64,000 nt of DNA. Source: Pseudomonas sp. Teo4. GTDB taxonomy: Bacteria; Pseudomonadota; Gammaproteobacteria; Pseudomonadales; Pseudomonadaceae. The stretch spans positions 2,294,001-2,358,000 of the forward strand of contig NZ_JAXCIL010000001.1 in the NCBI RefSeq assembly GCF_034387475.1, given 5' to 3'. Positions 46,578-62,219 of the stretch are shown here, one piece after another. Both the position numbers and the translations under genes were made by a program. The notes beneath the pieces are model-generated. The model was not told where the DNA came from. It saw only the letters and a list, made by a program, of their open reading frames with translations, and ran no database searches. How positions within the stretch are numbered: the first letter of the stretch is position 1; every line of letters begins with the position of its first letter.

Positions 46578-47354
46578 TCAATTGCCGTCGCCGATGGTGG
46601 TGCCACCGTCGACAATAAGGTTCTGTCCGCTAATGAACGCGCCGCCGGGCGCAGCCAGCAGCAATGCCAAGGCCGCCACCTCTTCAGGGCGGCCAACCCG
46701 ACGCAACGGGGTCAATGCCAGGCGCCGCTGCAGCACGTCAGGCTTGTCGGTCAGCGGGCGGGCGAACTCGGTATGGATGACGCCGGGGCTGATGGCGTTG
46801 ACGCGGATGTTCGCCGGCCCCCATTCCACGGCCAGGTTGCGCGCCAACTGCGCCAGGCCGGCCTTCGACAGCCCATAGAGGCCCAGGCCCTGGTTGCCAC
46901 GCACACCGGCGATGCTTGCCATGAGCACCACACTGCCGCCGCCCCCCTCGGCCATGGCCGGCAACAACGCGCTGGTCAACCAGACGGCGCTGCGCAGGTT
47001 GACGGTGAAGGTCAGCTCCCAGTCGGCGTCGCTGGCCGTGGCCAGCGGCCCTAGGTGCGGTGCGACACCGGCGTTGCACACCAGCGCGTCGAGCCGCCCA
47101 AAAAGCTCCAGGCAGCGGCCCGCCAAGGCCTGCACGGCCTCGGGGTCGCTCAGGTCGGCGACCAGGGCGATGGCCTCGACCCCCTCCTGCGCCAGTTGCG
47201 CCACGGCCTGCGCACAGCCCTCAGCGCTCTCGCTGCTGATGGCGATGCGAGCACCGGCGCGCCCGTATTCGCGAGCAATGGCCAAGCCGATGCCACGGGT
47301 GGAGCCAGTGATGAGTGCAGTCTTGCCCGCCAGGGAAAACAGTTCGCTGATCAT
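46578..47354 (-). CDS. Short-chain dehydrogenase/reductase of the catabolic operon
   Basis: 258 residues, classical SDR: TGSTRGIGLAIAREYG (about 16-31), LVCNAGVAPHLG, Ser147, Tyr160 and Lys164 (MASIAGVRGNQ, LYGLSKAG), ISPGVIHTEFARPL, FISGQNLIVDGG. NAD(P)-dependent oxidation or reduction of a hydroxyl group in the pathway. ATGA overlap with the MFS gene start-stop pair and 11-bp gap to the cupin gene show co-transcription. Confidence 0.88.
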   Translation of the reverse strand: MISELFSLAGKTALITGSTRGIGLAIAREYGRAGARIAISSESAEGCAQAVAQLAQEGVEAIALVADLSDPEAVQALAGRCLELFGRLDALVCNAGVAPHLGPLATASDADWELTFTVNLRSAVWLTSALLPAMAEGGGGSVVLMASIAGVRGNQGLGLYGLSKAGLAQLARNLAVEWGPANIRVNAISPGVIHTEFARPLTDKPDVLQRRLALTPLRRVGRPEEVAALALLLAAPGGAFISGQNLIVDGGTTIGDGN

Positions 47355-48538
47355 GCCCCTACCCCCACTGCCGAGCGCTCATGCCGTATCAGCCGCAGGC
47401 ACACAGGCGCCAGTGCCAACTGGCCGAAGGCGACCAGCAACAGTGCGGGTGGCAATTGCGAGATCACACCGTCAGTCAGTGCCAACACCAGCAGCGGGCT
47501 GATGAACTCACCGGCAAAAATGGCCGCGGTGAACCCACCTGTGGCACGGCCGCGCTGGTCGAAACCGACCTGCTGCATCACCAGGTTGATGAGCGTCGGC
47601 AGCAACAGGCCGACCCCCAGGCCGTTGACCAGAACCGCCAGTACCACCAGCGCATGGCCGGTCGACAGCGCCATCAGGCCGCCACCAAGCCCCGCCGTGG
47701 CAAACCCCAGAGCCAGCAGCCGGCAGGCCGACAGACGCGTCAGCAGGCGGAAGACCAGCGCGCCGGCCAGCACGCCGAGCTGGTTGGCGCCCATGGTCAG
47801 GCCTACCTGCTGCGGCGCATCAATGTGCAACAGTTGCAGCAGGTAGCCGGCTTGAACCGGGACGATGAACAGGCTGACCCCGGCCAACGTGGTGAGCAGG
47901 TACAACGGCGCCAGGGCCGCCCATGGGAAACGTGAAACAGCCGTCGCTTCGGACGTGATGCGGACGGCCCGAGGTTCCCAGAGCAGCAGCGCCATCAACG
48001 GCAGGCACAGCACACCCACTGCGTAGAGTGAGAACGGAGTGCGCCAGTCGCTTTCACCCAGCGCGCCTCCCACGCCCATGAACAACGCGGCCGACAGCGA
48101 GGTAACCACCATCTGCTGGGCGAACAACCGCGAGCGGCGCTGGCCGTCGAAATAGTCGCCCATGAGCGTGGTGCAGCAGGTCATGATCCCGGCTTCAGCC
48201 AGGCCGATGCCGGCGCGGCTGGCGACGATCAGGCCCAGTGAATCCAGCCACAGCGGCAACACCCCACAGAGGCTGTACAGCAGCATGCTCGCCAGCAACA
48301 ACGGTCGGCGCCCGACACGGTCGGCCAGCACACCCGCCAGCGGCGCCAGCAAGGCGATCACCAGGGCCGGCAGCGTCAGCGCAACCGGTACCAGCACGGC
48401 AACGCCCGGCGTCTCGGCGAAATGCGCGTGCATGCGTGGCAGCACCGGTGCGATAAGCACCGCGCCCAGCACGGGTAGACAGCTACCGAACAGCAACAGC
48501 ATGGCCTGGGCACGACCGGCGATGCGTTCAACGGCCAT
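47351..48538 (-). CDS. MFS transporter (12-TM) of the catabolic operon
   Basis: 395 residues, 12 predicted helices. LLAPLAGVLADRVGRRPLLL carries the MFS A-motif, and RAGIGLAEAGIMTCCTTLMG is the helix-4/5 region. Family resemblance is to DHA1-type uptake or export carriers. Overlaps the RND gene's 3' end by 11 bp. Likely transports an aromatic substrate or intermediate across the inner membrane. Confidence 0.87.
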   Translation of the reverse strand: MAVERIAGRAQAMLLLFGSCLPVLGAVLIAPVLPRMHAHFAETPGVAVLVPVALTLPALVIALLAPLAGVLADRVGRRPLLLASMLLYSLCGVLPLWLDSLGLIVASRAGIGLAEAGIMTCCTTLMGDYFDGQRRSRLFAQQMVVTSLSAALFMGVGGALGESDWRTPFSLYAVGVLCLPLMALLLWEPRAVRITSEATAVSRFPWAALAPLYLLTTLAGVSLFIVPVQAGYLLQLLHIDAPQQVGLTMGANQLGVLAGALVFRLLTRLSACRLLALGFATAGLGGGLMALSTGHALVVLAVLVNGLGVGLLLPTLINLVMQQVGFDQRGRATGGFTAAIFAGEFISPLLVLALTDGVISQLPPALLLVAFGQLALAPVCLRLIRHERSAVGVGA

Positions 48539-50993
48539 GGCTCACCTCCTTGAGCGGGTTGAAGCGGGCACCCTGCTCGCATTGCCGGGGCTTGGGCTCA
48601 TCCGCCTGCAGCGCCGCACGGGCCTGGTGTTGTGGCAAGAGGAAGTAGGCCAGCGCCGGCAGCAGGATCAGTGCACCGACCATGTTCCAGACGAACATGA
48701 AGGCCAGCAGCACGCCCATGTCGGCCTGGAACTTGATCGGCGAGAAGATCCAGGTTCCGACGCCAATGGCCAGGGTGATGCCAGTGAGCATCACCACCTT
48801 GCCGGTGAACAACAGTGCGCGGTAGTACGCCTGGGACAGGCTCGCGCCTTGGCGCAGTTGGGCCAGCACGATGCTCATCACGTACAGCGCGTAATCCACG
48901 CCGATACCGACACCCAGGGCGATCACCGGCAGGGTCGCCACCTTCACGCCAATGCCCAGCGCGACCATCAGTGCCTCGCAAAGTATCGAGGTGAGCACCA
49001 GCGGCAGCACTGCGCAAAGCACAGCGCGCCAGGAACGGAAGGTCACCAGGCACAGCAGGATCACCGCGCCATACACCCACCACAGCATGTCGCGGTTGGC
49101 CTGTTTAACCACCTGATTGGTGGCCGCCTCGATGCCGGCGCTGCCGGCGGCCATCAGGAAGCTGGCCTGCTCGCTGTCATTGGCCTGGGCAAAGCCCTGG
49201 ACGCTGTCCACCACCCGCGCCAGGGTGTCGGCCTTGTGGTCGGTGAGGTAGGCGTAGAGCGTCAGCAGGCTGCAGTCGTCGTTGTACAGCCCACGTGGAG
49301 CGTTGGCGGTGACCATGTTCAGGGTCGCCTGGTTGTTGACCAGGTCGTACCACTTCGGGCTGCCTTCGGAGAGGCCAACCAGCACACGGCGGTTGAGCAG
49401 TGCCAGCGAGTTGGTCGAGTCCACCCCCTGCAGGCCGCGCAACTGCCAGTCCAGATCATCCACGCGTTTCAAGGTGTCGTAGGCCGAACAACCACCGGGG
49501 GCGGTGCGCACCATCACCGCGAACACATCACTGCTGGCGCCGTAGTGCCGGGTGACGAAGGCGTTGTCGCGGTTGTAGCGTGAATCGGCGCGCAACTCGG
49601 GGGCGCCGGCGTCGAGGTCGCCTACCTTCAGGTGCAGGCTCACGGCGTAGCCGCCGGCGGCCATCAGTGCGGCCACGGCGATGCACCACGCGGCCCAGCG
49701 ACGCTGGGTGAACAGGTCGAGAAAACGCCACAGCGCATGCTTGCGCGCCCCGCTCGCCTCGGCCTCTTCGGCACGCAGGCTGCGCCGCGCCGCACGAGCA
49801 CTGACGCCCACATAGGAGAGCAGCACGGGCAGCAGGATCAGGTTGGTGAAGATCAACACCGCCACGCCCAGGCTGGCGATGACCGCCAGGTCCTGGATCA
49901 CCTGGATCTGGATGATCATCAGCACGGCGAAGCCCACGGCATCGCACAGCAGCGCGGTGAGCCCGGCCAGGAACAGCCGACGGAAAGTGAAGCGCGCCGC
50001 CACCAGGCGATGCATGCCGCGGCCGATGTCCTGCATGATGCCGTTCATCTTCTGCGCGCCGTGGCTCATACCGATGGCGAACACCAGAAACGGCACCAGC
50101 ACCGAGTATGGGTCGAGCTCGTAGCCCAGCAGCGGCAGCAAGCCAAGTTGCCAGATCACCGCCACCAGCGAGCACACCACCACCAGCGCGGTGCTGCGCA
50201 CACAGCGGGTGTACCAATAGAGCACCACGGCGGTGATGGTGATGGCAGCGGCGAAGAACAGCAGGATCTGCCTGAGGCCGTCGATCAGGTCGCCCACCAC
50301 CTTGGCAAAGCCAGTGATGTGGATCTGCACGCCCTGCGCCTGGAAGCGCTCGCGCAGGGTCTCCAGTTCATGGGCGAAGGCGGTGTAGTCCAGGGTTTGG
50401 CCGTCCGGCGTGTTCTCCAGCAGCGGCACGTAGATGATGCTTGAACGCTGGTCGAAGGCCACCAGCTGGCCGATCTCGTTAGAACGCTCGACGTTGCGCT
50501 TGAGCGCTTTGAGGCTCGCGTCACCACCATCGTAGCCGTCGGGAATGACCGGGCCGCCTTCCAGGCCATCCTCGGTCACGCCGGTCCAGCGGGTGGACGG
50601 GGTCCAGAGTGACTTCATTGCCGCACGGTCGACGCCCGGTAGCAGATAAACAGCGTCGTTGAGTTGCTGCAAGCTGTGCAGGTAGCCCTTGTCGTAGATG
50701 CTGCCGTGCGGGTTGACCACGGCGATGCGCACCGCGTTGCCCAACCCGGCCAATTCCTGGCGGTGCTCCAGGTAGTTGTGAACGAACGGATGATCACGGG
50801 GGATCATCTTCTCGAAGCTGGCGTTGAGCGTCAGGCGCGAGGCCTGCCAGCCGAGCAACAGGGTCGCTGCCAGGCACAGCAGCAGGACCAGAGCGCGGTG
50901 GTTGAACAGCGCACGTTCAAGCAGCGAACCGGATGTGCTGTCGAAGTCATCGAGGCGGCCGCTGGACGGCGCAGGTGAATTCATGGCGTGCAT
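48528..50993 (-). CDS. RND-superfamily (MMPL-type) exporter protein
   Basis: 821 residues with the 12-helix RND layout: one helix at about 33-50, a large periplasmic loop, five helices at about 240-400, a second helix near 440 and loop, then five helices at about 650-790. Characteristic stretches are LVPFLVFAIGMSHGAQKMNG (helix-4 type) and VIALGVGIGVDYALYVMS. Such proteins occur with DUF1302, DUF1329 and YCF48-like proteins in clusters for hydrophobic compounds. It follows the YCF48 gene by 3 bp. Direction of transport cannot be read from sequence. Confidence 0.87.
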   Translation of the reverse strand: MHAMNSPAPSSGRLDDFDSTSGSLLERALFNHRALVLLLCLAATLLLGWQASRLTLNASFEKMIPRDHPFVHNYLEHRQELAGLGNAVRIAVVNPHGSIYDKGYLHSLQQLNDAVYLLPGVDRAAMKSLWTPSTRWTGVTEDGLEGGPVIPDGYDGGDASLKALKRNVERSNEIGQLVAFDQRSSIIYVPLLENTPDGQTLDYTAFAHELETLRERFQAQGVQIHITGFAKVVGDLIDGLRQILLFFAAAITITAVVLYWYTRCVRSTALVVVCSLVAVIWQLGLLPLLGYELDPYSVLVPFLVFAIGMSHGAQKMNGIMQDIGRGMHRLVAARFTFRRLFLAGLTALLCDAVGFAVLMIIQIQVIQDLAVIASLGVAVLIFTNLILLPVLLSYVGVSARAARRSLRAEEAEASGARKHALWRFLDLFTQRRWAAWCIAVAALMAAGGYAVSLHLKVGDLDAGAPELRADSRYNRDNAFVTRHYGASSDVFAVMVRTAPGGCSAYDTLKRVDDLDWQLRGLQGVDSTNSLALLNRRVLVGLSEGSPKWYDLVNNQATLNMVTANAPRGLYNDDCSLLTLYAYLTDHKADTLARVVDSVQGFAQANDSEQASFLMAAGSAGIEAATNQVVKQANRDMLWWVYGAVILLCLVTFRSWRAVLCAVLPLVLTSILCEALMVALGIGVKVATLPVIALGVGIGVDYALYVMSIVLAQLRQGASLSQAYYRALLFTGKVVMLTGITLAIGVGTWIFSPIKFQADMGVLLAFMFVWNMVGALILLPALAYFLLPQHQARAALQADEPKPRQCEQGARFNPLKEVSHGR

Positions 50994-50996
50994 GGC

Positions 50997-52058
50997 TCAG
51001 TCCGTCGTGGTGGAAAGGGAAGATGGCGCCAGGCGGCGGGCACCGGCCATGCCGACGGCAACGATGGCGCCGTCGGCGGCGATGGTGGCGGCGGCCAGCG
51101 GCAAGCCATCGGTCACTGGCAAGGGCTGGGCGGCGAAGTCGTCAAGGCCGCTGCGCAACAGCATCCCCGCCTGGTTGGCGAGCAACAGCTGGTTACCGGC
51201 GACGCGGATGCCATTGAGCGAAGCGGGTATCGGGTTGGCCAGTGCTCGGAAACTGTCACCGCCGTCATCAGAGGCGAACAGCGAGCCACGCAACCCGCCG
51301 ACCAGCAGTCGCCCGCTGGGCAGTACGCTGGCGGCGAAGTAGCTGCCGTCGTAGGGGCCTTGCAGCGCAACGAAGTGGGCACCGCCATCACGCGAGCGCA
51401 ACAGCAGCCCCTGTTCACCGGCGACGTACAGCTCTGCACCTTGGCGCGCCAGCGCATAAAGATGCAGCCCACGCCGATTCGGCAACAACCCCATGCTGGA
51501 CTGCCAGGAGCGCCCACCGTCGGTGGTCGCCAAGGCCAAACCATAGGCGCCCACGACCAAGCCGTGGCGCGCATCGGCAAAGCTCAGGGCCAGCAGCGGT
51601 TTGTCGGCGCCGTCAGCTTGCAGCCGCTGCGCCGCCGCGATGCGACTGGCATCGCCATCAGCCTCGCCAGCCTGCAGCTCAAGGGCGGCGGCGCGCTTGC
51701 CGTCAAGCTGCAAGGCCCAGTGTTCACCGCCATCTTCGCTGTGCAACACCACGCCAGCGTGGCCGACTGCCCAGCCGTTGCGCTCGTCAACGAACTGCAC
51801 GGCGGTCAGGCTGACACTCACCGGTACGGCCGTGGCCTGGCGCCAGGTGGCGCCATTGTCATCGGAGAGCAGCACTACACCACGCTCGCCCACCGACACC
51901 AGGCGCGTACCGGCACGGGCCACATCCTGCAGCACCGCGTGCAAGGCTTGAGGGCCATGCACGGCGGGCTGCGAAAGTACATCCACGTCACTTCCGGCGA
52001 ATGCCGGGGGCAGCCCGCAACAGGCTGCCAGCAGCCAGCCATAGAGCATCTTGTTCAT
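50997..52058 (-). CDS. Exported YCF48/BNR-repeat-like protein
   Basis: 353 residues. Signal peptide (MLYGWLLAACCGLPPAFA), then a beta-propeller of repeated blocks with the pattern GEHWALQ, GGRSWQSS, GGAHFVAL and GGDSFRAL (Gly-x-x-W/F), as in photosystem assembly factor YCF48 and BNR proteins. Probably periplasmic. It is always-adjacent to the RND gene in this cluster type, so it may be a periplasmic accessory of the RND protein; the biochemical role is not known. Confidence 0.83.
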   Translation of the reverse strand: MNKMLYGWLLAACCGLPPAFAGSDVDVLSQPAVHGPQALHAVLQDVARAGTRLVSVGERGVVLLSDDNGATWRQATAVPVSVSLTAVQFVDERNGWAVGHAGVVLHSEDGGEHWALQLDGKRAAALELQAGEADGDASRIAAAQRLQADGADKPLLALSFADARHGLVVGAYGLALATTDGGRSWQSSMGLLPNRRGLHLYALARQGAELYVAGEQGLLLRSRDGGAHFVALQGPYDGSYFAASVLPSGRLLVGGLRGSLFASDDGGDSFRALANPIPASLNGIRVAGNQLLLANQAGMLLRSGLDDFAAQPLPVTDGLPLAAATIAADGAIVAVGMAGARRLAPSSLSTTTD

Positions 52059-52111
52059 CGCACGCAGCCTTTTCTTGTTGTATTCGGCACAGCACAGCGC
52101 AGTGCGTCCGT

Positions 52112-53479
52112 TCAGCGCACACCCTCGCCCGCCATGGCATCGGCGGTGAACACCGAGTCCTTGTAGGGCGGCACGATGCGGTATTGCTCGTTCTTGCCGG
52201 CGAACAGGTCACCGGCAAACCAGGCGCCAGAGAGCAGGTCGTAGAAGCCGTTGGTCAGGGTCACTACGCCAGGCAGGTCAGGCAGCACCACCGGCGAGGT
52301 CCAGACCACCTTGGCCAGCTGGTCGCGGGCGTCGTAACGCTCACCCAGCACGGCGGCCCAGGTGTCCTCGTCGAGGTAGTAGGTGCTCTTGGGCATGACG
52401 TGGCGCTGGCCGTTTTTCAGGGTCGCCTGCACCACCCAGACACGGTGCAATTCCCAGCGGATGGCTTGCGGCTTCAGGTGATGCGGGTCGAGCAGCGCTT
52501 CGGCGTTGGCGGCGGTGAAGACCTGGTTGGCGTTGTAGGGGATGTACATCTCCTGCTTGCCCACCAGTTTCCAGTCGAAACGGTCGAGGCGGCCGTTGAA
52601 CACATACAGTTCATCGAAGCTCATGACCCCGGCGGTGGCCGGTGTCGGCGTATCGCAACAGGCATTGGGCAGGCGGCGCACGCGACGCTGGCCAGGCAGG
52701 TAGGTCCATACCGCAGCTTTGTCGGCGTTGAGGTTCTCAAGGCCGGTGATGGCCTCGCCGGCACGCAATGGCGGGCCATCGTTGGTCATGCGGATAGACC
52801 AGAACACGCCCTTGTCGCCACCGCCACCAGGCAAGTACCAAGGCATCTGCAGGTCGGCACGCGAGTCGTTGGTCAGTACGTGCTTGCCGTCGGCGGTGGT
52901 CAGGTACTGATTGAAGCTGGCGTGCCAGGAAGCACCACGCCAGCGCAACAGGTGGTTCCACATGGCTTCGACGCCGTTGGCGGGAATCGGAAACGGAATG
53001 CCCCCGGCGGCGCCTTCTGGCATCGGGCCGGCAGGGCCGTCGAGCAACTTGCCACTGGTGGCATTGGCGAAGGTGGCGTCGTACACCGATTGTGGTGCGG
53101 CGGCGCTGCGGTGGGTCGGGTAGATGTCCAACCGGTAGCTGTCCGGGTACTTTTTCAACATCGCCTGGATGCCCGGCGTCAGCTTGTCGGCGTACTGCGC
53201 CATGTTCTGCGCGGTGATGGTCAGCAGTGGTTTGTCGTTGGCGAAGGGGTCGCCACGCTTGCCGCCCTCCTTGTAGGCAGGGTCGATCTTGGTATAGCCA
53301 CCGGTCCAGGCTGGAATGCTGCCGTCGGCATTGCCGGCACGTTCGCCACCGAGCGGGGTCAAGGTTGTCTTGAGGGTGGCTGCCTGCTCGGCAGTCACTG
53401 CGGCGCAGGCGCCGTGGGCGAACAGCAGCGAAGCACTCAGGGCAGTGAGCAGGGAAACGACTTTCTTGTTGTGTCTCAT
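52112..53479 (-). CDS. DUF1329 periplasmic/outer-membrane protein
   Basis: 455 residues with signal peptide (LLTALSASLLFAHGACA), then the DUF1329 domain: TLTPLGGERAGNADGSIPAW at the start, YLPGQRRVRRLPN, FNGRLDRFDWKLVGKQEMYI and YYLDEDTWAAVLGERYDA. The fold is LolB-like (lipid-binding). Found next to DUF1302 and RND genes for hydrophobic-substrate uptake or envelope transport. Fifty-three bp before the YCF48 gene. Confidence 0.87.
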   Translation of the reverse strand: MRHNKKVVSLLTALSASLLFAHGACAAVTAEQAATLKTTLTPLGGERAGNADGSIPAWTGGYTKIDPAYKEGGKRGDPFANDKPLLTITAQNMAQYADKLTPGIQAMLKKYPDSYRLDIYPTHRSAAAPQSVYDATFANATSGKLLDGPAGPMPEGAAGGIPFPIPANGVEAMWNHLLRWRGASWHASFNQYLTTADGKHVLTNDSRADLQMPWYLPGGGGDKGVFWSIRMTNDGPPLRAGEAITGLENLNADKAAVWTYLPGQRRVRRLPNACCDTPTPATAGVMSFDELYVFNGRLDRFDWKLVGKQEMYIPYNANQVFTAANAEALLDPHHLKPQAIRWELHRVWVVQATLKNGQRHVMPKSTYYLDEDTWAAVLGERYDARDQLAKVVWTSPVVLPDLPGVVTLTNGFYDLLSGAWFAGDLFAGKNEQYRIVPPYKDSVFTADAMAGEGVR

Positions 53480-53493
53480 CGGGTAGTCCTCGG

Positions 53494-55164
53494 TCAGAAG
53501 GTGCGGCTGACGGTGAAGGCGATGAAGTCGCGGTCTTTGAGCGACTGTTCGAAGGTGTAGTGGTTGTCGGCGTCGAGGAAGGTGTTCTCCGGGCCGTAGT
53601 AGTGCGTGTAGGTCAGGCCCAGGCTCCAGGTATTTAGGTAGTTGCCCTTCAGGCCGATGTTCAGGTCGCCGCCGTGGTCGCTGCCAAAGCCGGTGCCCAG
53701 TGCCATGGATGCGCCGTTGGTGTAGCTCGCGCCGATCGGCACCGACAGGTCGAGGCCGGGAATGATCTGCCGGTACATCGGCTCGAAGACCAGGCGCAGG
53801 CTGGTGGCGTCGCGGTCGGCGTTGGGGTCGACGGCATCGGCGTTCTTGCTCACGCTCATCACCCGGTTCCAGGCGATTTCGCCCAGAAAGCTCGATTCGG
53901 CGGCGATGAAGTTCGGCTCCAGGCTGGCCAGCCAGGAGAAGTTGGCGTGCAACGTGCGACCGGTGGCGTACACCGGGTCATCGTCGTTGTCGATCGCCTC
54001 GTCCGTGGCAAGCGCGTGCTGGTTGGTCGAGGCCAGCGGCTGGTTCCAGCGCGTGGACAGTTCGCCAGCGATGTTGAAGTTGCCCAGGGTCGTGGAGAAG
54101 CTGGCGCCCAGGGCCTCGATGCCTTCGGGGTAGACCCAGTAGAACTCGCCGGCTTTGCCGCTGACCGGGTCGAGGTTGGCGAAGTCCGGGCGCACGTTGA
54201 GTTGCGGCGACTTGTCATGGAAGCGAATGGCGTACACGCCCCAGTCCACCGTCTCGGTGCGCCAGCGCAGTTGCACGCCGCCCTGCCCCGAGTCCTTGGC
54301 CTCCTTGTCATTGCCACGGAAGAATGCCAACGGCTGTCCGCCGGGGAACACCGGCGTGCCGACGAACATGCGTTCGCCACCGTCGCCAAAGAAGTCGTCG
54401 CTGGAGAAGTAGCTGCCGGCCGCCGGCAGGCGGTTGGCCTCCCACTCGAACTGGTAGTACGCCCCCACGGACACATCCGGCGTCAGCTGCAATTGGCCGG
54501 AAATCTGCTGCACCGGCCGGATCAGCTCCTTGAACTGGGTGTTGGGCACCGACAGGCCCTTGACCACGTCAACCGGCGCCATGCCGCCGGCGATGCCGTT
54601 CATACCGTAGAACAAGCTCTCGCCCCACTGCATGGCGTAGCGGCCCAGGCGGCCGGACACTGGCAGGTCGCCGATCTCGGTCTTGCCGAAGATGAAGGCA
54701 TCGAGCAGCTCACCCTTGCGCCCGTGCAGCTTGCGGGTGTCATCGGTGAATTCGTCGTAGTCGACCGAGTAGCTGTTGGCGCGGCTGGGGTCGTTGTTGT
54801 CGGTGCCCTGGTTGTAGACATCGTCGTACCAGGCCGCGCCACTGACCCGCGCACCGACGTTTCCATAGGTGATGTCCAGTTCGGACAGCAGGTCGAGGCG
54901 GTTGGAGATCAGCCCCTTGTCGAAGTTGCGGTCACCGTCGTCCAGGTTCAGCGCGGTCTGCCCTTCGGTCAGCTTGCTGCTGGCGTCCTGGGTACGCCAG
55001 GCGGCGCTGTACTTCAGGGTATTGTCCCAGCGCACCCGCAGGTCGGGGTTGCCGGTGTCGAGTTCGAAGGCCTGGGCCTGGCTGGTAGCCAGCGCAAGAA
55101 GCGCCAGGCTGATGGGTTTGAGCGCCGGCAACGGCCGTACGATTGCACCTTTGCGAGTCAACAT
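53494..55164 (-). CDS. DUF1302 outer-membrane beta-barrel protein
   Basis: 556 residues. Signal peptide (ISLALLALATSQAQAFE), then the DUF1302 barrel: LDTGNPDLRVRWDNTLKYS, GLISNRLDLLSELDITYG, GRLGRYAMQWGESLFYGMNG and a C-terminal phenylalanine (FIAFTVSRTF). Outer-membrane channel or assembly partner of the DUF1329 protein 14 bp downstream. Probably helps move a bulky aromatic compound across the outer membrane; this is inferred from co-occurrence. Confidence 0.88.
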   Translation of the reverse strand: MLTRKGAIVRPLPALKPISLALLALATSQAQAFELDTGNPDLRVRWDNTLKYSAAWRTQDASSKLTEGQTALNLDDGDRNFDKGLISNRLDLLSELDITYGNVGARVSGAAWYDDVYNQGTDNNDPSRANSYSVDYDEFTDDTRKLHGRKGELLDAFIFGKTEIGDLPVSGRLGRYAMQWGESLFYGMNGIAGGMAPVDVVKGLSVPNTQFKELIRPVQQISGQLQLTPDVSVGAYYQFEWEANRLPAAGSYFSSDDFFGDGGERMFVGTPVFPGGQPLAFFRGNDKEAKDSGQGGVQLRWRTETVDWGVYAIRFHDKSPQLNVRPDFANLDPVSGKAGEFYWVYPEGIEALGASFSTTLGNFNIAGELSTRWNQPLASTNQHALATDEAIDNDDDPVYATGRTLHANFSWLASLEPNFIAAESSFLGEIAWNRVMSVSKNADAVDPNADRDATSLRLVFEPMYRQIIPGLDLSVPIGASYTNGASMALGTGFGSDHGGDLNIGLKGNYLNTWSLGLTYTHYYGPENTFLDADNHYTFEQSLKDRDFIAFTVSRTF

Positions 55165-55251: not shown

Positions 55252-56376
55252 TCAGATCGGCCGTGCGGTGACCTCCAGCATCTGCTTGACCAGGCCGATG
55301 CGGTCGAAGGACGGGTCACGCTGGACTTCCTTCTCGCCGGCCAGCAGGGACATGTCGCTGATGAACTTGCAGCGTTCGAAACGCCGCGCCATGAAGCGCT
55401 TCAACTGCACATCCAGGCTGCCACCGGCGGTGAGTTCCTCGGCCAGCACCACGGCATCCTCGATGGCCATGCCGGCGCCCTGCCCCAGGTGTGGCGTGGT
55501 GGCATGGGCGGCATCGCCGATCAGCAATACGCGGCCGCGATACCAGGGTTCATCGACGAACACCGCTTCCAGCGGCTTGTAGACAACTTCGGCACTGTCG
55601 ACGATTCGCGAGCGCAACTCGCCGATCAGCCCGCCGAAACCGGCCAGGCGCTGGCGCAGGCCATCCGCCAGGGTGGCCGGTTCCATCCAGGGGTTGCCTG
55701 GCTCGTGGGAGGTGGTGAACAGGTACATCAGGTCATCGGCCAGCGGCACCAGGCCGGCATTGCCGGACGGCCCCTGGTAGTTGGCCAGGTGGTCGATGCC
55801 CTCGGCACGCGGGAAGTTGTAGCGCCATACCGACTGCCCGGTGAAGCGCGGCTGGTAGCGGTCGCCGAACAACAAACCGCGCACCTTCGAGAACAACCCA
55901 TCGGCACCGACCATCAGCCCATAGCGGCCCTCACTGCCATCAGTGAACAGCACGTCAACCCCGCTGTCGTCCTGTTCGAAGCGCTCCACCGAGGTGCCCA
56001 GGCGCACCTGGGTGCCGAGTTCGATGGCGGTTTCGCTCAGTACCTTGTGCAAGGCTCGGCGAGAGATGCCGACGTTGGCTGGATACCGAGGGCCAGCCAG
56101 GCGCTGGCCGGGAATGCGCGCAAGCTGCTGGCCCTGGGTCGTATAGATGGCGACGTCCTCGAAGGCGTAAGCCGCGTCCAGGTAGGCCTCCAGAAGGCCC
56201 AGTCGGTGCATCTCGCGCACCACGTTGCTCTGCTGGATGATGCCGACGCCATAGACGGTCCATTCGGTTTTTAGCTCGACCAGGTCGACAGCGATACCCT
56301 TGCGGCGCAGGGCAATGGCGGCACAAAGCCCGCCAATTCCGCCACCCACGATCAGCACGTTGTTCACAGTATTCAT
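55252..56376 (-). CDS. FAD-dependent aromatic monooxygenase (FdeE / 3-hydroxybenzoate 6-hydroxylase-like)
   Basis: 374 residues from the ATG at 56376; the open frame upstream reads through unrelated sequence. FAD motif VLIVGGGIGGLCAAIALRRKG (about 7-27), DG motif GLMVGADGLFSKVR (about 155-168), second FAD motif RVLLIGDAAHATTPHLGQGAG (about 283-303). Single-component class A flavoprotein hydroxylase that adds one hydroxyl to a phenolic ring with NAD(P)H and O2. Its place after the VOC dioxygenase and Rieske genes, with its own copy of the regulon element upstream, suggests it makes the diol that the dioxygenase cleaves. Confidence 0.88.
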   Translation of the reverse strand: MNTVNNVLIVGGGIGGLCAAIALRRKGIAVDLVELKTEWTVYGVGIIQQSNVVREMHRLGLLEAYLDAAYAFEDVAIYTTQGQQLARIPGQRLAGPRYPANVGISRRALHKVLSETAIELGTQVRLGTSVERFEQDDSGVDVLFTDGSEGRYGLMVGADGLFSKVRGLLFGDRYQPRFTGQSVWRYNFPRAEGIDHLANYQGPSGNAGLVPLADDLMYLFTTSHEPGNPWMEPATLADGLRQRLAGFGGLIGELRSRIVDSAEVVYKPLEAVFVDEPWYRGRVLLIGDAAHATTPHLGQGAGMAIEDAVVLAEELTAGGSLDVQLKRFMARRFERCKFISDMSLLAGEKEVQRDPSFDRIGLVKQMLEVTARPI

Positions 56377-56470
56377 GGCATGTCTCACGTCTTGTTCTTG
56401 TTGTCCGCCGCGCCATGCGAGGCGGCCGTTTCCTGTGCCTGGGCACAGCTTCCCGGCAGCGCCGGGCTTT

Positions 56471-56517
56471 GACCAATCGAGTCCCGGGATGCGAGCTATC
56501 GCGTGGCGCGATAGCTC
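56471..56517 (-). promoter_or_regulatory. Regulon element copy A (upstream of the FAD monooxygenase)
   Basis: Palindrome GAGCTATCGCG-TGG-CGCGATAGCTC (56493-56517) overlaps the Rieske stop codon. In the direction of the monooxygenase gene it is followed, 20 bases after the palindrome core, by ATTGG (complement of 56473-56477), with CGCATCC in between. Core and spacing match copies B (57922-57966) and C (59062-59106). Confidence 0.7.
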
Positions 56518-56863
56518 AGGTATTGAGTTGTTCCAGCGGCAATAGCAGCCAGCCGTGTGCCTCGCGGTGCTGAAGCGTCTGCAACGTCTCACCCCGGCAT
56601 GGGCCATGGACGCAGGCGCCGTCGTCGGGCCTGAAGCGAGCGCCGTGGGCGTAGCAGATGACCCACTGGCCATCGGCGCTGAGGAATCGATCCTTGCGAT
56701 ACTCCAGCGGCACCAGCAGGTGCGGGCAGCGGTTGCGGTAGACCCGTACTTCGCCTCGGTACCGGAGCGCGAACAGGCTGTCTGCTCCACTGCCCTGCGG
56801 GTCAAAGCCTCGCGCCTGGCCCTCGCCCAGCTCATCGAGCCGGCACAGCACGGCACAGTCCAC
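56516..56863 (-). CDS. Rieske-type [2Fe-2S] ferredoxin
   Basis: 115 residues from a GTG at 56863 (AGGG upstream). Rieske cluster ligands Cys46 and His48 (NRCPHLLVPLEY) and Cys70 and His73 (VICYAHGARFRPDDGACVHG). Length and fold match small Rieske ferredoxins of aromatic-ring oxygenase systems. No Rieske oxygenase alpha subunit is present nearby, so it probably keeps the iron of the VOC dioxygenase reduced or serves the flavoprotein. Three bp after the dioxygenase gene; an FdeD-like role is inferred. Confidence 0.88.
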   Translation of the reverse strand: MDCAVLCRLDELGEGQARGFDPQGSGADSLFALRYRGEVRVYRNRCPHLLVPLEYRKDRFLSADGQWVICYAHGARFRPDDGACVHGPCRGETLQTLQHREAHGWLLLPLEQLNT

Positions 56864-56866
56864 GGC

Positions 56867-57808
56867 TCAGCCCTGCTTGGGCGGTGGGCCACCAGGTGCC
56901 CATTTCTCCCGTGAGCTGAACAGGAACAGCTGCGAGTTGTCGGCCGACATCGGCGCCTGACGCGCCGCCCACTCGTCGTCATGCTTGTCCATGTCGGCGT
57001 CGTATTCGATGTGGCAGCCAAGCGGGCTGTTGAAGTACCAGAACCAGTTGGAGCCCAGCAGATGCCGACCGGGGCCCCAGAAACTGGTCCAGCCGTTCTG
57101 CTGGAAGCGTGTGCCAGCCAGCAGCACCTCCGTGCCGCTGCCCATGTGGAAGGTGAAGTGCTCGCAGCCCTGCATGTGCGGTGGCGTCTGGATCATGAAC
57201 AGGCAATGGTGGTCGTCCATGCCGGCGGTGCGCATGAACGGGCCTACGCCGATGAAACTGTCGGTGGTGACGAAACCCAGGCGGTCACGGTAAAAGGCTT
57301 CGCCCTTGGCCGCGTCGGGCACGAAGTACACCACGTGGGACAAGGTGCGTGGCACCGCCGGCATGTCCAGGGTAATGCCCAGCTGGTTGAGCGGGCGCTG
57401 CGGCGCGCTGCCGGGAGCGTTGGTCAGGTCGGCGGGTGCCTCGAAGGCGCGACGGCAGGAAACCTGGAAGGCGATGGCGAAACCCAGGTCGTCGACGGTG
57501 TGCAGCGCACCGTGCTCGTCACGGCGCACTTCACGGTCTCGCCCCAGTTCATCGGCGATGGCCTCCAGGTCTGCCGTCGAAGCGACGCCGTAGACCGTCT
57601 CGCGCAGTGACGGAGTTGGGCCCAGCGCGGGCGGCAGGCTGCTGTCGTCGCCGTGGCGAATGATGATCGCGGTGCCGTCCAACGCCTCGAAACGGCCTCC
57701 GTCGGCGTCCAGTTGGGCGGCCACAAGGCCGTAGTCACGCAGGCAATTGCTACAGGCCTGGATATCGTCGACGCCAAAGACCAACGCGTCGAGTCCAAGA
57801 ATGTTCAT
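56867..57808 (-). CDS. VOC-type extradiol ring-cleavage dioxygenase (FdeC-like)
   Basis: 313 residues from the ATG at 57808 (GGAG upstream); the open frame to 57859 starts upstream without RBS. Two-domain vicinal-oxygen-chelate fold. In the C-terminal domain, candidate iron ligands are His158 (RTLSHVVYFVPD), His217 or His221 (CEHFTFHMGSG) and Glu268 (CHIEYDADMD), the usual 2-His-1-carboxylate set. It would open a catechol-like ring between or beside hydroxyls made by the neighbouring monooxygenase. First gene of the minus-strand series, with regulon element copy B upstream. Confidence 0.85.
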   Translation of the reverse strand: MNILGLDALVFGVDDIQACSNCLRDYGLVAAQLDADGGRFEALDGTAIIIRHGDDSSLPPALGPTPSLRETVYGVASTADLEAIADELGRDREVRRDEHGALHTVDDLGFAIAFQVSCRRAFEAPADLTNAPGSAPQRPLNQLGITLDMPAVPRTLSHVVYFVPDAAKGEAFYRDRLGFVTTDSFIGVGPFMRTAGMDDHHCLFMIQTPPHMQGCEHFTFHMGSGTEVLLAGTRFQQNGWTSFWGPGRHLLGSNWFWYFNSPLGCHIEYDADMDKHDDEWAARQAPMSADNSQLFLFSSREKWAPGGPPPKQG

Positions 57809-57921
57809 GGCTACCACTCCATTGAAATTGTTATTCGGCGAGGCAGGGTCACCGGACATGGGTCGTGGCGACTCGGCGGCCGCTCGACTGGAGTTCAGGT
57901 TGCTCGGTGGGGAGGCGGCGT

Positions 57922-57966
57922 GACCAATCGCGAGTCAGGATGCGAGGCATCGGCAATCGCGATACC
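57922..57966 (-). promoter_or_regulatory. Regulon element copy B (upstream of the VOC dioxygenase)
   Basis: In the direction of the dioxygenase gene: ATCGCG-ATT-GCCGAT (complement of 57949-57963), 20 bases with CGCATCC, then ATTGG (complement of 57924-57928). One half-site is degenerate. Spacing is identical to copies A and C. The surrounding 277-bp divergent region also contains half-sites closer to the LysR start. Confidence 0.65.
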
Positions 57967-58025
57967 TGTGCGCCAGCCCATGGCGCCTGGCGTTGGCTCG
58001 GCTGGACAGCGGATTGGCCTTGACG

Positions 58026-58054
58026 TATCGGCAATGCAGCGGGAAGGTATCGCG
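58026..58054. promoter_or_regulatory. Half-sites ATCGGCAAT and ATCGCG upstream of the LysR gene
   Basis: ATCGGCAAT (58027-58035) repeats the degenerate half of element B, and GGTATCGCG (58046-58054) repeats the conserved half-site. They lie 32-59 bp before the LysR start and could mediate autoregulation. Confidence 0.4.
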
Positions 58055-58085
58055 AAAATAACTACAAGAACCGTGAGCTATCACC

Positions 58086-59024
58086 ATGCGCTTCCATCAC
58101 CTGGATCTGAACCTGCTGGTGGCACTGGATGTCCTGCTCGAGGAGCAGAACATCACCCGAGCCGCCGAACGCCTGCACATGACCCAATCGGCCACCAGCG
58201 GCGTACTGGGCCGTTTGCGAAACTTTTTCGAGGACGAGTTGCTGGTACAGGTCGGCCGCAAGATGCAGCCAACCCCTTATGCCCTTGAGCTGGCCAACCC
58301 GGTGCGTGAGGTACTGCTGACCATCCGTTCCTCGATCACCGCCAAGCCGGTGTTCGAGCCTGCAAGCAGCAAGCGGCACTTTCGCCTGGTGACCTCGGAC
58401 TACCTGATCAGTGTGCTGTTCGCCCAGGTCATCCAGAAAATCCACCAGCAGGCACCACACATCACCTTCGAGATGATCAGCCCGGGTGACGGCAGCGCCG
58501 AGCTGCTGATGCGTGGCGAGGTCGACATGATGATCGTGCCCGAGCGCTACCTGATCGACGGCCACCCGGCGCAACTGCTGTTCGAAGAAGAACATGTCTG
58601 CGTGGTCTGGCGCGACAACCCCCAGGTCGGCGAACACCTGACCCTGGAACAGTACATGGAGATGGGGCACATTTCGGTGGGCTTTGGCCGCAACCGGCAC
58701 TTGAGCATCGAGGACTGGTTCATGAGCCAGTACGGTTTCAACCGCCGCCTGGAAGTGATCACCAACGACTTCAATACCCTGCCGCAGCTGCTGGTAGGCA
58801 CGCCGCGCGTCGCCACCATGCACCGGCGCCTGGCCGAACTCTACGCGGGCTATCTGCCCCTGCGCATCCTGCCGCCCCCAGTGAAGATCCCAGTGATGCG
58901 CGAATTCATGCTCTGGCATCGCAGCATGGACGGTGACCCCATGCACCGCTGGCTGCGCGAGCGCATCAGTGACTTCATCCGGCACGCCGACCAACAGCCG
59001 AACATCCTGCGCGCCACCGCCTGA
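58086..59024 (+). CDS. LysR-family regulator of the aromatic catabolic regulon (FdeR/NodD-like)
   Basis: 312 residues. N-terminus LDLNLLVALDVLLEEQNITR, the NodD/NagR/FdeR-type opening, HTH about 20-45 (AAERLHMTQSATSGVLGRLR), effector domain from about 92 (KRHFRLVTSDYLISVL). Regulators of this group respond to aromatic compounds, including flavonoids. It is placed between the divergent minus-strand series and the co-oriented hydrolase series, and the element ATCGCG-N3-CGCGAT occurs before all three operon heads. It most likely binds there. Confidence 0.88.
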   Translation: MRFHHLDLNLLVALDVLLEEQNITRAAERLHMTQSATSGVLGRLRNFFEDELLVQVGRKMQPTPYALELANPVREVLLTIRSSITAKPVFEPASSKRHFRLVTSDYLISVLFAQVIQKIHQQAPHITFEMISPGDGSAELLMRGEVDMMIVPERYLIDGHPAQLLFEEEHVCVVWRDNPQVGEHLTLEQYMEMGHISVGFGRNRHLSIEDWFMSQYGFNRRLEVITNDFNTLPQLLVGTPRVATMHRRLAELYAGYLPLRILPPPVKIPVMREFMLWHRSMDGDPMHRWLRERISDFIRHADQQPNILRATA

Positions 59025-59061
59025 GCAACACACATCGCCCCGGCCGCCGCAACGGCGTCGG

Positions 59062-59106
59062 GGCATCGCGTTTCGCGATACCTTGCATCCCCACACTCGA
59101 TTGGCC
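59062..59106 (+). promoter_or_regulatory. Regulon element copy C (upstream of the alpha/beta hydrolase)
   Basis: GGCATCGCG-TTT-CGCGATACC with core ATCGCG (59065-59070) and CGCGAT (59074-59079), followed 20 bases later by ATTGG (59100-59104) with TGCATCC between. Perfect core palindrome, oriented toward the hydrolase gene at 59207. Confidence 0.7.
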
Positions 59107-59206
59107 CCGCCCCGTCCTGCCTGCGTACCTTGCCTTCGAACCGCGCCTTGCGTGCCTGTCGCAACTTGAAGGCGCCGGACTCAACGACCGCAGAAGGACA
59201 ACAACA

Positions 59207-60364
59207 ATGTTCCGTTACTTCCCCACCAATTACGTCTGGAATCTCTCGGTGGACCTGGCCATCGAAATGGGTGCCCGCATGGGTGAGATCGAAGCGATGT
59301 GCGCCCCCCTGCAGGAGGCCGCCAAGCAGCCAGACGCTGCCGGCACCCAGGCATTCCGAGAAACCTGGGCGAAGATGGCCGACAAGCTCTGCGCCCTGGC
59401 CGAAGAAGACCAAGCCGCCGGCAGGCACCTCTCTGCCGGCGAGAAGTACAACCGCGCCGCCACCTACTACCTCACCTGCGAGCGCCTGCAGGCCCATGGC
59501 GCGCCAGGTCGTGCGGCGCTGTACCAGCGCTTTCTGGACACCTTCGCCCGCGGCATCGACCTGTCCGGGGAAAACTGCGAACGGGTGGAAATCCCCTACG
59601 AAGGCAAGTGCCTGTCGGGCCTGCTAGTACGCGCCGAGGGCGTCACTGGCCCTGCACCGCTGCTGGTGCAGGTCAACGGCCTGGACTCGACCAAGGAGAT
59701 GAAGTACCGCGTCGGCCTGCCTGCATGGCTGGCCAAGCGAGGCGTGTCCTCACTGATCATCGACCAGCCCGGCACCGGCGAAGCACTGCGCCTGCACGGC
59801 CTGACCGCACGCTACGACAGCGAGCACTGGGCCAGCCGCGTGGTGGACTGGCTGGAAACCCGCGCTGACGTCAACCCCAAGCGCATCGGCCTTGAAGGCG
59901 TATCCCTGGGCGGCTACTACTGCCCCCGTGCGGTGGCCTTCGAGCCACGCTTCGCCTGCGGCGTGGTGTGGGGCGCCAACCACGACTGGCGCGACGTGCA
60001 GAAGCGGCGCCTGGAGAAAGAAGGCGACTTCCCGGTGCCACACTACTGGGCCCACGTGCGCTGGGTCTGGGGCGCGAACGACATGGACGATTTCATGCGC
60101 ATCGCCGAGAACGTGCACCTCGACGGCGTGCTGGACCGCATCCGCGTGCCGTTCCTGGTCACCCACGGCGAGAAGGACTCGCAGATCCCGCTCAAATGGG
60201 CGCATCGCACCTATGAGCAACTGGTGAACAGCCCCAAGCGCGAGCTGAAGATCTTCACCGACCGCGAAGGCGGTGTGCAGCACTCAAGCTTCGACAACAG
60301 CATCAATGCCGGCCACTACATCGCCGACTGGGTCGCCGAGACACTGGGCGGCCACACCGCCTGA
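59207..60364 (+). CDS. Alpha/beta-fold C-C hydrolase (2,6-dihydroxypseudooxynicotine hydrolase-like)
   Basis: 385 residues. An extra N-terminal helical domain (about 1-120) precedes an alpha/beta-hydrolase core with nucleophile elbow LEGVSLGGYYC (Ser233), acid in HGEKDSQIPLKW (Asp324) and histidine in GGVQHSSFDN (His359). This domain layout matches the DHPON hydrolase of nicotine degradation, which cleaves an aryl-acyl C-C bond. Here it may cleave the acyl side chain from a ring-fission product. First of three plus-strand genes; regulon element C lies upstream. Confidence 0.82.
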   Translation: MFRYFPTNYVWNLSVDLAIEMGARMGEIEAMCAPLQEAAKQPDAAGTQAFRETWAKMADKLCALAEEDQAAGRHLSAGEKYNRAATYYLTCERLQAHGAPGRAALYQRFLDTFARGIDLSGENCERVEIPYEGKCLSGLLVRAEGVTGPAPLLVQVNGLDSTKEMKYRVGLPAWLAKRGVSSLIIDQPGTGEALRLHGLTARYDSEHWASRVVDWLETRADVNPKRIGLEGVSLGGYYCPRAVAFEPRFACGVVWGANHDWRDVQKRRLEKEGDFPVPHYWAHVRWVWGANDMDDFMRIAENVHLDGVLDRIRVPFLVTHGEKDSQIPLKWAHRTYEQLVNSPKRELKIFTDREGGVQHSSFDNSINAGHYIADWVAETLGGHTA

Positions 60365-60429: not shown

Positions 60430-61773
60430 ATGGGCGCCCTGCACCTGCACTGTTCCACCCTGTTCGATGGCACCGGCCTGCAAGCCCGCCAGCAGCAGAC
60501 GCTGATTATTGAAGGCGGCGTTATCCGCCATGTCGGACCCACCTCCGAGGCCCCCCGCCCACGGCCCGGCGACCGCGAGGCCCACGGCAACTTCGTCATG
60601 CCTGGGCTGGTGGATGTCCACACCCATCTGGCATTCGGCAATGCCCAGAGCGAAGAGGACATCGACATCTGGACCAGCGACGAATTCCGCGCCCTGCGCG
60701 GGCTGTTCTTCGCCCAGCACGTGTTGGCCGCCGGTGTGACCTCGATGGTCTGCCCAGGCGACAGCGGCCAGCTCAGCATCGCCGTACGCAACACAGTCAA
60801 CGCCGGGTTGTTCGAAGGCCCACGCATTGCCGCCAGCAGCCGTGTGATCACCAACCGGCAGAGCCTCAACGATTGGTTCCCCAGCCGCGTCGGCGCCCCG
60901 GAATACTTCACCGCCGCGTTGGTCACCAGCCGTACCGAAGCCATAGCGCAGATCCGCAAGCAGGCCAAGGACGGCGTGGACCTGATCAAGATCGCCATGG
61001 ACGGCACCCATCGTCGCCCCAACGGCGAAATCATCGCCGCCTTCACCGCCGACGAAACCCGCGAAATGGTCGATGAAGCCCATCGCCTCGGCTGCCGCGT
61101 CGCCACCCACGCTTACGGACGCGAGGCGGTGATGTACGCCGCCAAGGCCGGTGTCGACCTGGTGTTCCACGCCTTTTACATGGACGACGCCTGCATCGAG
61201 GCGCTGCTTGAGGCCGGTAGCGTGCTGGCCCCGACCATGACCTTTCCACAGAACACCGTGGACTTCTGTCAGCCTCACGACCCTGCGATCAGCACCGGCT
61301 ATGCCGGCTACTGCGCACGGACCCTGGAGCTCGGCACGCCAATACTCAAGCGTGCCAAGGCCGCAGGTGTGCCCTTCGCCTGCGGCAGCGACAGCGGTTT
61401 TGCCGTCACGCCTTACGGTGAATGGCACGCCCGCGAGCTGGAACTGCTGGTGCGACGCCTGGACTTCACCCCGGCCGAGGCGCTGTATGCCGCGACCAAC
61501 GTCGGCGCACGGCTGATGCCGCGGGGCGAAACCCTCGGCACGCTGGAACCGGGCAAGCAGGCTGATCTGCTGGTACTCGATGGCTCGCCACTGGACGACA
61601 TCCGCATCCTCCAGGACCGCAACCGTCTGCAGGCCGTGTACAAGGCCGGCGAACCGGTACGCCTGCAACGCACTGCCTACAACCCCAAGCAGGTGTCGGA
61701 CTTCAACTCGCTGAAATGGACCGACCTGTATACCCGCGACCGCGTGGCCGAACTTGGCAAATGGAGCCTGTGA
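60430..61773 (+). CDS. Metal-dependent amidohydrolase
   Basis: 447 residues, imidazolonepropionase/prolidase-like amidohydrolase. GLVDVHTHLAFGNAQSEEDI (metal His pair, about 60-75), KIAMDGTHRRPNGE, CRVATHAYGREAVMYA, FACGSDSGFAVTPYGEWHA (metal Asp) and TLGTLEPGKQADLLVLDG at the C-terminus. GAGGAG precedes the ATG. No signal peptide. It would open a lactone, lactam or amide formed in the pathway; the substrate is unknown. Confidence 0.86.
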   Translation: MGALHLHCSTLFDGTGLQARQQQTLIIEGGVIRHVGPTSEAPRPRPGDREAHGNFVMPGLVDVHTHLAFGNAQSEEDIDIWTSDEFRALRGLFFAQHVLAAGVTSMVCPGDSGQLSIAVRNTVNAGLFEGPRIAASSRVITNRQSLNDWFPSRVGAPEYFTAALVTSRTEAIAQIRKQAKDGVDLIKIAMDGTHRRPNGEIIAAFTADETREMVDEAHRLGCRVATHAYGREAVMYAAKAGVDLVFHAFYMDDACIEALLEAGSVLAPTMTFPQNTVDFCQPHDPAISTGYAGYCARTLELGTPILKRAKAAGVPFACGSDSGFAVTPYGEWHARELELLVRRLDFTPAEALYAATNVGARLMPRGETLGTLEPGKQADLLVLDGSPLDDIRILQDRNRLQAVYKAGEPVRLQRTAYNPKQVSDFNSLKWTDLYTRDRVAELGKWSL

Positions 61774-61775
61774 AC

Positions 61776-62219
61776 ATGACAACGCTGGACTTCGAACGGG
61801 CCGCGCAACTGGCCGCCAACACCCTACGCCACGCCCGCGCCCTGGGCGTGCGGCCGTTGGCGGCCGCGGTACTCGACAGCGCGGGCAACCCACTGGCGAT
61901 CCTGCGTGACGAGCAGGCCAGCTTCCTGCGCCCGCAAATCGCCACCGGCAAGGCACGCGGCTGCCTGGGCATGGGCTTCGGCGGCCGCGAACTGGCCCGC
62001 CGCGCCCAGGCGATGCCCGCATTCTTCGACGCCATCAACAGCCTCACAGGTGGCGAAGTGATCCCGGTGCCCGGCGGTATTCTGCTGCGCGATGCCGAGG
62101 GCCGCGTGCTGGGTGCCATCGGCGTCAGTGGCGATACCTCGGACAACGACGAACGCTGTGCCCTGCTGGCCATCGAAGCGCTCGGCCTGATCGGCGATAC
62201 CGGCGACCTTCAGCCCTGA
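61776..62219 (+). CDS. GlcG/HbpS-family protein
   Basis: 147 residues from the ATG at 61776, nine bases after GGAG; a GTG at 61770 overlapping the previous stop is an alternative. Typical heme-degradation/GlcG fold: AVLDSAGNPLAILRDEQASF, ATGKARGCLGMGFG, VIPVPGGILLRDAEGRVLGA, IGVSGDTSDNDERCA. These small proteins accompany many catabolic operons (glycolate, propanediol, aromatic) with unknown function. Last gene of the plus-strand series, translationally close to the amidohydrolase. Confidence 0.85.
   Translation: MTTLDFERAAQLAANTLRHARALGVRPLAAAVLDSAGNPLAILRDEQASFLRPQIATGKARGCLGMGFGGRELARRAQAMPAFFDAINSLTGGEVIPVPGGILLRDAEGRVLGAIGVSGDTSDNDERCALLAIEALGLIGDTGDLQP

Follow-up and report, generated by a model that had tools for sequence, protein, structure and literature searches.

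Three near-identical DNA elements lie upstream of genes encoding a flavin adenine dinucleotide (FAD) monooxygenase, an extradiol dioxygenase of the vicinal oxygen chelate (VOC) type and an alpha/beta hydrolase in the stretch of Pseudomonas sp. Teo4 DNA analyzed here (64,000 nucleotides, contig NZ_JAXCIL010000001.1, positions 2,294,001 to 2,358,000; hereafter the window). Each element holds two tandem dyads and is, very probably, a double operator of the LysR-type protein encoded at 58086 (the 58086 regulator), which would place three transcription units under one regulator with a flavonoid or plant phenol as its likely inducer. The elements share one architecture, are specific to these three places in the genome and are co-inherited with the gene of the 58086 regulator.

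Architecture, specificity and conservation of the elements

Read directly from the letters on the strand facing the gene, all three elements follow the pattern ATC-N9-GAT-N7-ATC-N9-GATTGG. The monooxygenase element is ATCGCGCCACGCGAT-AGCTCGCATCCCGGGACTCG-ATTGG, the dioxygenase element is ATCGCGATTGCCGAT-GCCTCGCATCCTGACTCGCG-ATTGG and the hydrolase element is ATCGCGTTTCGCGAT-ACCTTGCATCCCCACACTCG-ATTGG. The initial annotation had described three composite copies pointing toward their genes, with a 20-base spacing and a (C/T)GCATCC block in register, and direct reading bore this out in full, including a degenerate half-site in one copy, which is the right half of the dioxygenase element. Its three locations were also correct, with ends 2 to 5 bases off the exact spans given here with the promoter-like boxes:

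56473..56512 (-), putative double LysR operator upstream of the FAD monooxygenase gene; distal dyad 56498-56512, proximal dyad 56476-56490
56471-56476 and 56447-56452 (-), monooxygenase promoter-like boxes: -35-like TTGGTC and -10-like GAAGCT
57924..57963 (-), putative double LysR operator upstream of the extradiol dioxygenase gene; distal dyad 57949-57963, proximal dyad 57927-57941
57922-57927 and 57897-57902 (-), dioxygenase promoter-like boxes: -35-like TTGGTC and -10-like CAACCT
59065..59104 (+), putative double LysR operator upstream of the alpha/beta hydrolase gene; distal dyad 59065-59079, proximal dyad 59087-59101
59101-59106 and 59125-59130 (+), hydrolase promoter-like boxes: -35-like TTGGCC and -10-like GTACCT

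Each element is built of two tandem 15-base-pair (bp) LysR-type dyads (ATC-N9-GAT) whose centres are 22 bp apart, and a 15-bp inverted repeat with a T-N11-A core was found twice in every one of the three. In the proximal dyad the GCATCC block provides the left half and the GAT of CGATTGG the right half, and the end of the dyad merges into the -35-like TTGGTC or TTGGCC. The earlier view of a LysR-linked composite, oriented to each operon and lying over a promoter-like -35 box, is therefore retained, whereas its division into a single dyad and a separate promoter block is not, since a second ATC-N9-GAT dyad lies inside the 20-bp gap.

The composite pattern, which was derived from the three window elements themselves, has three exact matches in the 6,512,772-base genome and no others, and the reversed control has none. 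With an 18-position pattern, no further match was found in the whole genome at up to two mismatches, and tolerating three mismatches added 8 other places, compared with 1 in the reversed control. When the pattern was lengthened, its block letters being fixed and three mismatches permitted, just two of the three elements were recovered because the dioxygenase element is too divergent for it. Allowing one mismatch, the window contains 7 copies of the palindrome alone where 3.83 are expected. As many turn up in 9 of 100 shuffles, so that the excess is not significant, and the palindrome was rejected as a signal on its own. The proposal that the motif marks a three-promoter regulon rather than being scattered agrees with the genome search. 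In 298 genomes of the genus the pattern gave 123 matches and no control match.

To describe the arrangement in relatives, 20 loci of 15-16 kb were fetched from 19 relatives. Counting exact ATC-N9-GAT dyads without requiring pairs gave 177 dyads. The distance was at most 60 bp for 65 pairs, being exactly 22 bp for 55 of these and 21 for four; as the relatives were chosen from motif-bearing genomes, these counts show arrangement and not the rarity of pairs. With the window included, the exact element precedes the orthologous dioxygenase gene in 16 of 19 upstream regions (one mismatch in the other 3), the monooxygenase gene in 14 of 19 (one mismatch in 2) and the hydrolase gene in 16 of 17. In the 17th hydrolase region (L153) the best scan match is the dioxygenase element read backwards, and the hydrolase-side element has a degenerate distal half.

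The window and its relatives provided an alignment of 51 sites (19 dioxygenase, 16 monooxygenase and 16 hydrolase), from which L153 in the hydrolase class and L135, L150 and L151 in the monooxygenase class (more than one mismatch) were left out. Positions 0-2, 12-14, 22-24 and 34-36 are near constant, and these same positions were used for scanning. Among the positions that were not, T18, C21, C25, C33, T37, G39 and C41 are constant in at least 90% of the sites, with T18, C33, T37 and G39 fully so. Columns 36-41 read TTRG(T/C)C, a -35-like hexamer, and 18 bases further on a -10-like hexamer occupies positions 60-65 (A61 1.04, A62 0.79 and T65 1.30 bits), followed by columns 67-91 with at most 0.62 bits. 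The -10-like hexamer of the window's dioxygenase promoter is placed one base farther than in the relatives. If positions 60-65 are the -10 box, the dyad centres would fall near -65 and -43 relative to the start of transcription.

One alternative is that each element is a single palindromic LysR site followed by a separate fixed promoter block, with no second dyad. The distal dyad is indeed the better palindrome and ATTGG continues into a -35-like hexamer; however, ATC at positions 22-24 and GAT at 34-36 (also scan positions) match the distal ATC and GAT in constancy, the dyad pairs peak at 22 bp, and nod boxes and fde-like loci, compared below, share this spacing. We consider this alternative very unlikely.

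Outside the three classes, exact tandem dyad pairs were seen before the amidohydrolase gene in 5 of 15 regions (L138:6842, L139:5091, L142:5748, L144:10492 and L147:5269). Their tail is GATACC, GATGCC or GATACT, versus GATTRG in the elements, and because of this difference they were not counted in the same class; they are a possible fourth target, one that would lack the -35-like overlap. In 14 further regions (L154-L167) matches within one mismatch are scattered, with none in L156, L157, L160, L161, L164, L165 and L167.

Co-inheritance with the 58086 regulator

The presumed cognate protein and the likely promoter of its gene are as follows:

58086..59024 (+), LysR-type regulator, NodD/FdeR-related; full length, Pfam LysR_substrate and HTH_1
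58020..58054 (+), likely own promoter of lysR (TTGACG-N17-GAAGGT), predicted to overlap the half-site GGTATCGCG

The 298 genomes of the genus sample, which include the genome under study, were searched for the 58086 regulator as well as for the motif. A match to the regulator at E 1e-60 was obtained in 53 genomes, and the 123 motif sites fall in 47. The motif is present in all 47 genomes that encode a 58086-type LysR of at least 70% identity (own genome included) versus 0 of the 251 others. Six genomes (G023, G044, G059, G163, G282 and G287) have a best LysR identity of 46-65% and no exact site, G023 having one-mismatch sites (locus L155); in the 245 remaining genomes, where no LysR matched at E 1e-60, no exact motif was found. 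The site is thus a near-perfect marker of the regulator in the 298 genomes and is usable for regulon mapping.

All but two of the 123 sites (121) are within 8 kb of a 58086-type LysR gene. Both of the others are in G161 (L152, L153), where the LysR gene lies at 444 kb and the enzyme operons, sites included, at 2.04 Mb on the same contig, so that regulator and operons are 1.6 Mb apart and the sites stay with the operons; no LysR match was found in the 15-kb enzyme-operon stretch. When the hydrolase gene is separated from lysR, as in L138, L141, L143 and L149, its site is directly upstream of the hydrolase gene. G111 carries a second fde-like cluster whose LysR is a different one (L161, 48%), and no site within one mismatch was found there. 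The co-occurrence strongly indicates that the elements are bound by the 58086 protein. The split in G161 offers a natural test of regulation in trans, and natural rearrangements of this kind allow one to test which operons the regulator serves.

Another regulator could read the elements and the 58086 protein be a neighbour only, the obvious candidate being a second LysR (about 40% identical) found near the cluster in many relatives. Fourteen of the 20 fetched loci encode this second LysR, and its own gene is preceded by a site in L142 and L144. However, a search at E 1e-70 gave no match to it for the genome under study and for 15 of the other motif genomes; G019, which encodes it but no 58086-type LysR, has no site; and the 58086-type LysR is found in every motif genome. 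On these grounds the second LysR was rejected as the cognate regulator, and we regard a different reader of the elements as highly improbable. The exact sites before the second LysR gene (L142:2752-2788 and L144:13483-13519) would make a two-regulator cascade.

Half-sites had also been noted upstream of lysR itself, and they are present, ATCGG at 58027 and ATCGCG at 58049. The promoter-like TTGACG-N17-GAAGGT at 58020-58048 continues into GGTATCGCGAAAATAACTAC. This stretch is visible in 16 of 30 loci, the displayed part of the other 14 being elsewhere, and GTAT(C/T)G-N2-AAAA(T/C)AA is kept in 15 of those 16, with L034 as the exception. Since the stretch is kept in relatives, the half-sites probably belong to the lysR promoter and perhaps serve in autoregulation.

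Cluster genes, candidate inducer and proposed mechanism

The genes that would be served by the three elements are listed below; identities are to three Herbaspirillum sp. loci.

56867..57808 (-), extradiol (VOC) dioxygenase, FdeC/IfcB-like; Pfam Glyoxalase, 64-68%
56516..56863 (-), Rieske protein, FdeD-like; Pfam Rieske, 45-48%
55252..56376 (-), FAD monooxygenase in the FdeE-like position, divergent in sequence; Pfam FAD_binding_3, 40-42%
47351..55164 (-), transport-type module downstream of the monooxygenase gene; DUF1302, DUF1329, YCF48-like, MMPL/RND transporter and MFS
59207..60364 (+), alpha/beta hydrolase, by its position presumably the counterpart of FdeB; Pfam Peptidase_S9, 82-85%
60430..61773 (+), amidohydrolase, probably the second gene of the hydrolase operon; Pfam Amidohydro_1
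61776..62219 (+), HbpS-like protein, probably the third gene of the hydrolase operon; Pfam PF03928, open frame from 61716, start codon unsure

The HbpS-like frame begins within the amidohydrolase gene with an ATG at 61716, and a second ATG at 61776 is just past the amidohydrolase stop, which makes these genes direct neighbours, with a possible overlap. Other groups have fde-like clusters (L040, L041, L044, L069 and L123) that also contain homologues of the DUF1302, DUF1329, YCF48 and MMPL proteins, and the stretch from 47351 to 55164 probably encodes an outer-membrane/transport module for hydrophobic substrates.

The hydrolase gene and FdeC-, FdeD- and FdeE-type genes were found clustered with a NodD-like LysR gene, although the monooxygenase is just 40-42% identical to those of the three Herbaspirillum sp. 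loci. Judged from their sequences, the cluster enzymes match in kind the fde/ifc set that cleaves the flavonoid A ring. This match and the NodD/FdeR relationship of the regulator make a flavonoid or related plant phenol the likely inducer class, and the 58086 regulator probably switches on genes for the breakdown of a plant flavonoid-like compound.

The relationships of the 58086 regulator were examined in a tree of 78 rows (L044_8149 left out), which places it with others of its kind in a well-supported branch that does not include the four NodD-type proteins. A weak fork (85/80) joins it with NodD, and NahR is a long branch of unsure placement. Among the matches listed to plasmid records, which come from 40 of 1197 records, the best identity was below 47%, and LysR genes near VOC dioxygenases and NodD2 genes are included. 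A LysR 67% identical to the 58086 regulator is encoded at 8590-7685 of L114 (Marinimicrobium alkaliphilum, which its label assigns to another family), next to a hydrolase and a VOC dioxygenase, with two-mismatch dyad pairs upstream.

We propose that one LysR dimer would occupy the distal dyad ATCGCG-N3-CGCGAT at about -65 and a second the tandem dyad ATCC-N7-CGAT, 22 bp downstream at about -43, where its end would overlap the -35 box. The inducer would then alter the tetramer and the DNA bend, allowing RNA polymerase to start as in other LysR systems. The three units under the one regulator would be dioxygenase-Rieske, monooxygenase with the transport module, and hydrolase-amidohydrolase-HbpS. 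In this model binding and activation are predicted, as are the inducer, the limits of the operons and the start sites.

Several observations weigh against this double-operator model or parts of it. The proximal dyad is, inside its ATC and GAT, an imperfect palindrome, and three of the 19 monooxygenase upstream regions (L135, L150 and L151) have no element directly before the gene. The -10-like hexamers are weak and the start sites extrapolated, and columns 57, 58, 64 and 66 of the alignment are raised as well, to between 0.67 and 0.95 bits. A second related LysR is encoded in 31 of the 47 motif genomes and could share the sites. As for the inducer, the 58086 regulator lies outside the branch of the Herbaspirillum sp. 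proteins, and the monooxygenase is 36-43% identical to those encoded beside the other VOC dioxygenases examined; with such low identity, the substrate may not be a flavonoid.

That the elements are instead repressor operators, where the regulator would obstruct RNA polymerase at the -35 box until the inducer releases it, would suit the overlap of the proximal dyad with -35 and the dual behavior of FdeR in a synthetic circuit (excerpts of PMC10799723), but appears very unlikely, as the -35- and -10-like boxes are weak, a distal dyad near -65 is at the usual location for LysR activators (excerpts of PMC5002191), and FdeR and NodD are described as activating their own operons (excerpts of PMC10799723 and PMC5596368).

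No description of this regulon was found in the portions of open-licence papers that were covered, and a regulon of three near-identical double operators with one NodD-related regulator appears to be new; its mode of control is the usual one for LysR regulators. For a catabolic cluster that is apparently uncharacterised, it provides a precise, testable system of three promoters and one regulator, and it ties this cluster to the NodD/FdeR line of plant-signal sensors. With the balance of belief about even, we suggest that the 58086 type may be a third NodD-type lineage beside NodD and the FdeR-like proteins, governing a dispersed regulon for flavonoid or plant-phenol degradation in about one in six species of the genus (47 of 298 sampled), whose portable double operators would follow their operons through rearrangement, even 1.6 Mb from the regulator.

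Comparison with known LysR systems

On plasmid NAH7, ATT-N9-GAT occurs before ndoR and before salA; we take these to be NahR sites, the gene names nahA, nahG and NahR being assumed. Unlike the window elements, they are not accompanied by a good second dyad at the 22-bp distance, the best candidates matching 9 and 8 of 12 positions, and the LysR encoded beside salA, presumably NahR, is 31% identical to the 58086 regulator.

The ifc cluster of Variovorax shares with the window a monooxygenase (ifcA), an FdeC-like dioxygenase (ifcB) and an alpha/beta hydrolase, all in one daidzein-induced cluster (PMC11069340). Mutants of ifcA and ifcB showed that the breakdown of daidzein begins with the monooxygenase and the dioxygenase (PMC11069340), and IfcA homologues are reported in Pseudomonas (in excerpts of the same paper). 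Two differences stand out. The main text of PMC11069340 never uses the term LysR, and the window hydrolase has its own putative operator, whereas disruption of the Variovorax hydrolase leaves daidzein degradation unaffected (PMC11069340).

FdeR of H. seropedicae is a naringenin-dependent LysR that acts as an activator and, in a synthetic circuit, as a repressor too; it is NodD-like according to the title of Wassem 2017, and clustered T-N11-A boxes precede fdeA (all from excerpts of PMC10799723). FdeE with FdeD hydroxylates naringenin (excerpts of PMC8552027). The window resembles Herbaspirillum sp. L125, in which the order is LysR, one gene, then hydrolase-VOC-Rieske-monooxygenase. It differs in having three promoters, a divergent monooxygenase and the amidohydrolase and HbpS genes, and the 58086 regulator, which shares 42-44% identity with the three Herbaspirillum sp. 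proteins, is in a different branch. A close FdeR orthologue is thus unsupported by the tree, which holds these three proteins and not the FdeR of strain SmR1.

The spacing was followed in 86 fde-like loci, made up of the best 80 of 369 relatives (H. seropedicae SmR1 not among them) and six plasmid loci; 23 without a usable LysR upstream region were left out of the count of AT-N11-AT boxes. Pairs with a 7-bp gap lie upstream of LysR in 51 of the 63 others, against 0.06 expected from shuffles and none at gaps of 6 and 8, although the loci are related and are not 63 independent cases. Gaps of 3 (27 loci) and 16 (34 loci) are frequent too, because the boxes overlap. Exact ATC-N9-GAT pairs upstream of LysR are rare among the 86 loci, with no mismatch in L096 and L128 and one in L046, L054 and L068, so that the spacing is seen solely with the relaxed AT-N11-AT boxes.

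Nod boxes share with the window elements a pair of ATC-N9-GAT dyads separated by 7 bp. Such pairs were seen on symbiotic plasmids, in exact form upstream of nodB in Cupriavidus taiwanensis (L049) and with one mismatch in three further cases. In P. phymatum (L050) the gene that follows is again nodB, in R. indigoferae (L048) it is a glmS located behind nodL, and in S. americanum (L051) it is a gene without a nod name. The four LysR/NodD proteins of these loci are 43-45% identical to the 58086 regulator. The window elements differ in their inner bases (GCG/CGC) and their TTRGTCA tail, their neighbours are catabolic genes with no nod genes, and the 58086 regulator is outside the NodD clade. A strict nod box was therefore rejected, inner sequence and tail being unlike those of L048-L051 and the targets and regulator clade being different.

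The layout is also that of other double LysR operators. OxyR and CynR have 15-bp inverted repeats at -66/-44 and MetR at -63/-41, the proximal repeat lying by the -35 box (excerpts of PMC5002191). As these three show such spacing, the 22-bp layout is ordinary for LysR regulators, and the idea that it is a NodD speciality was dropped. What sets the window elements apart from the OxyR, CynR and MetR operators is that both dyads hold the constant ATC and GAT, and that near-identical copies stand before three or more promoters for one regulator.

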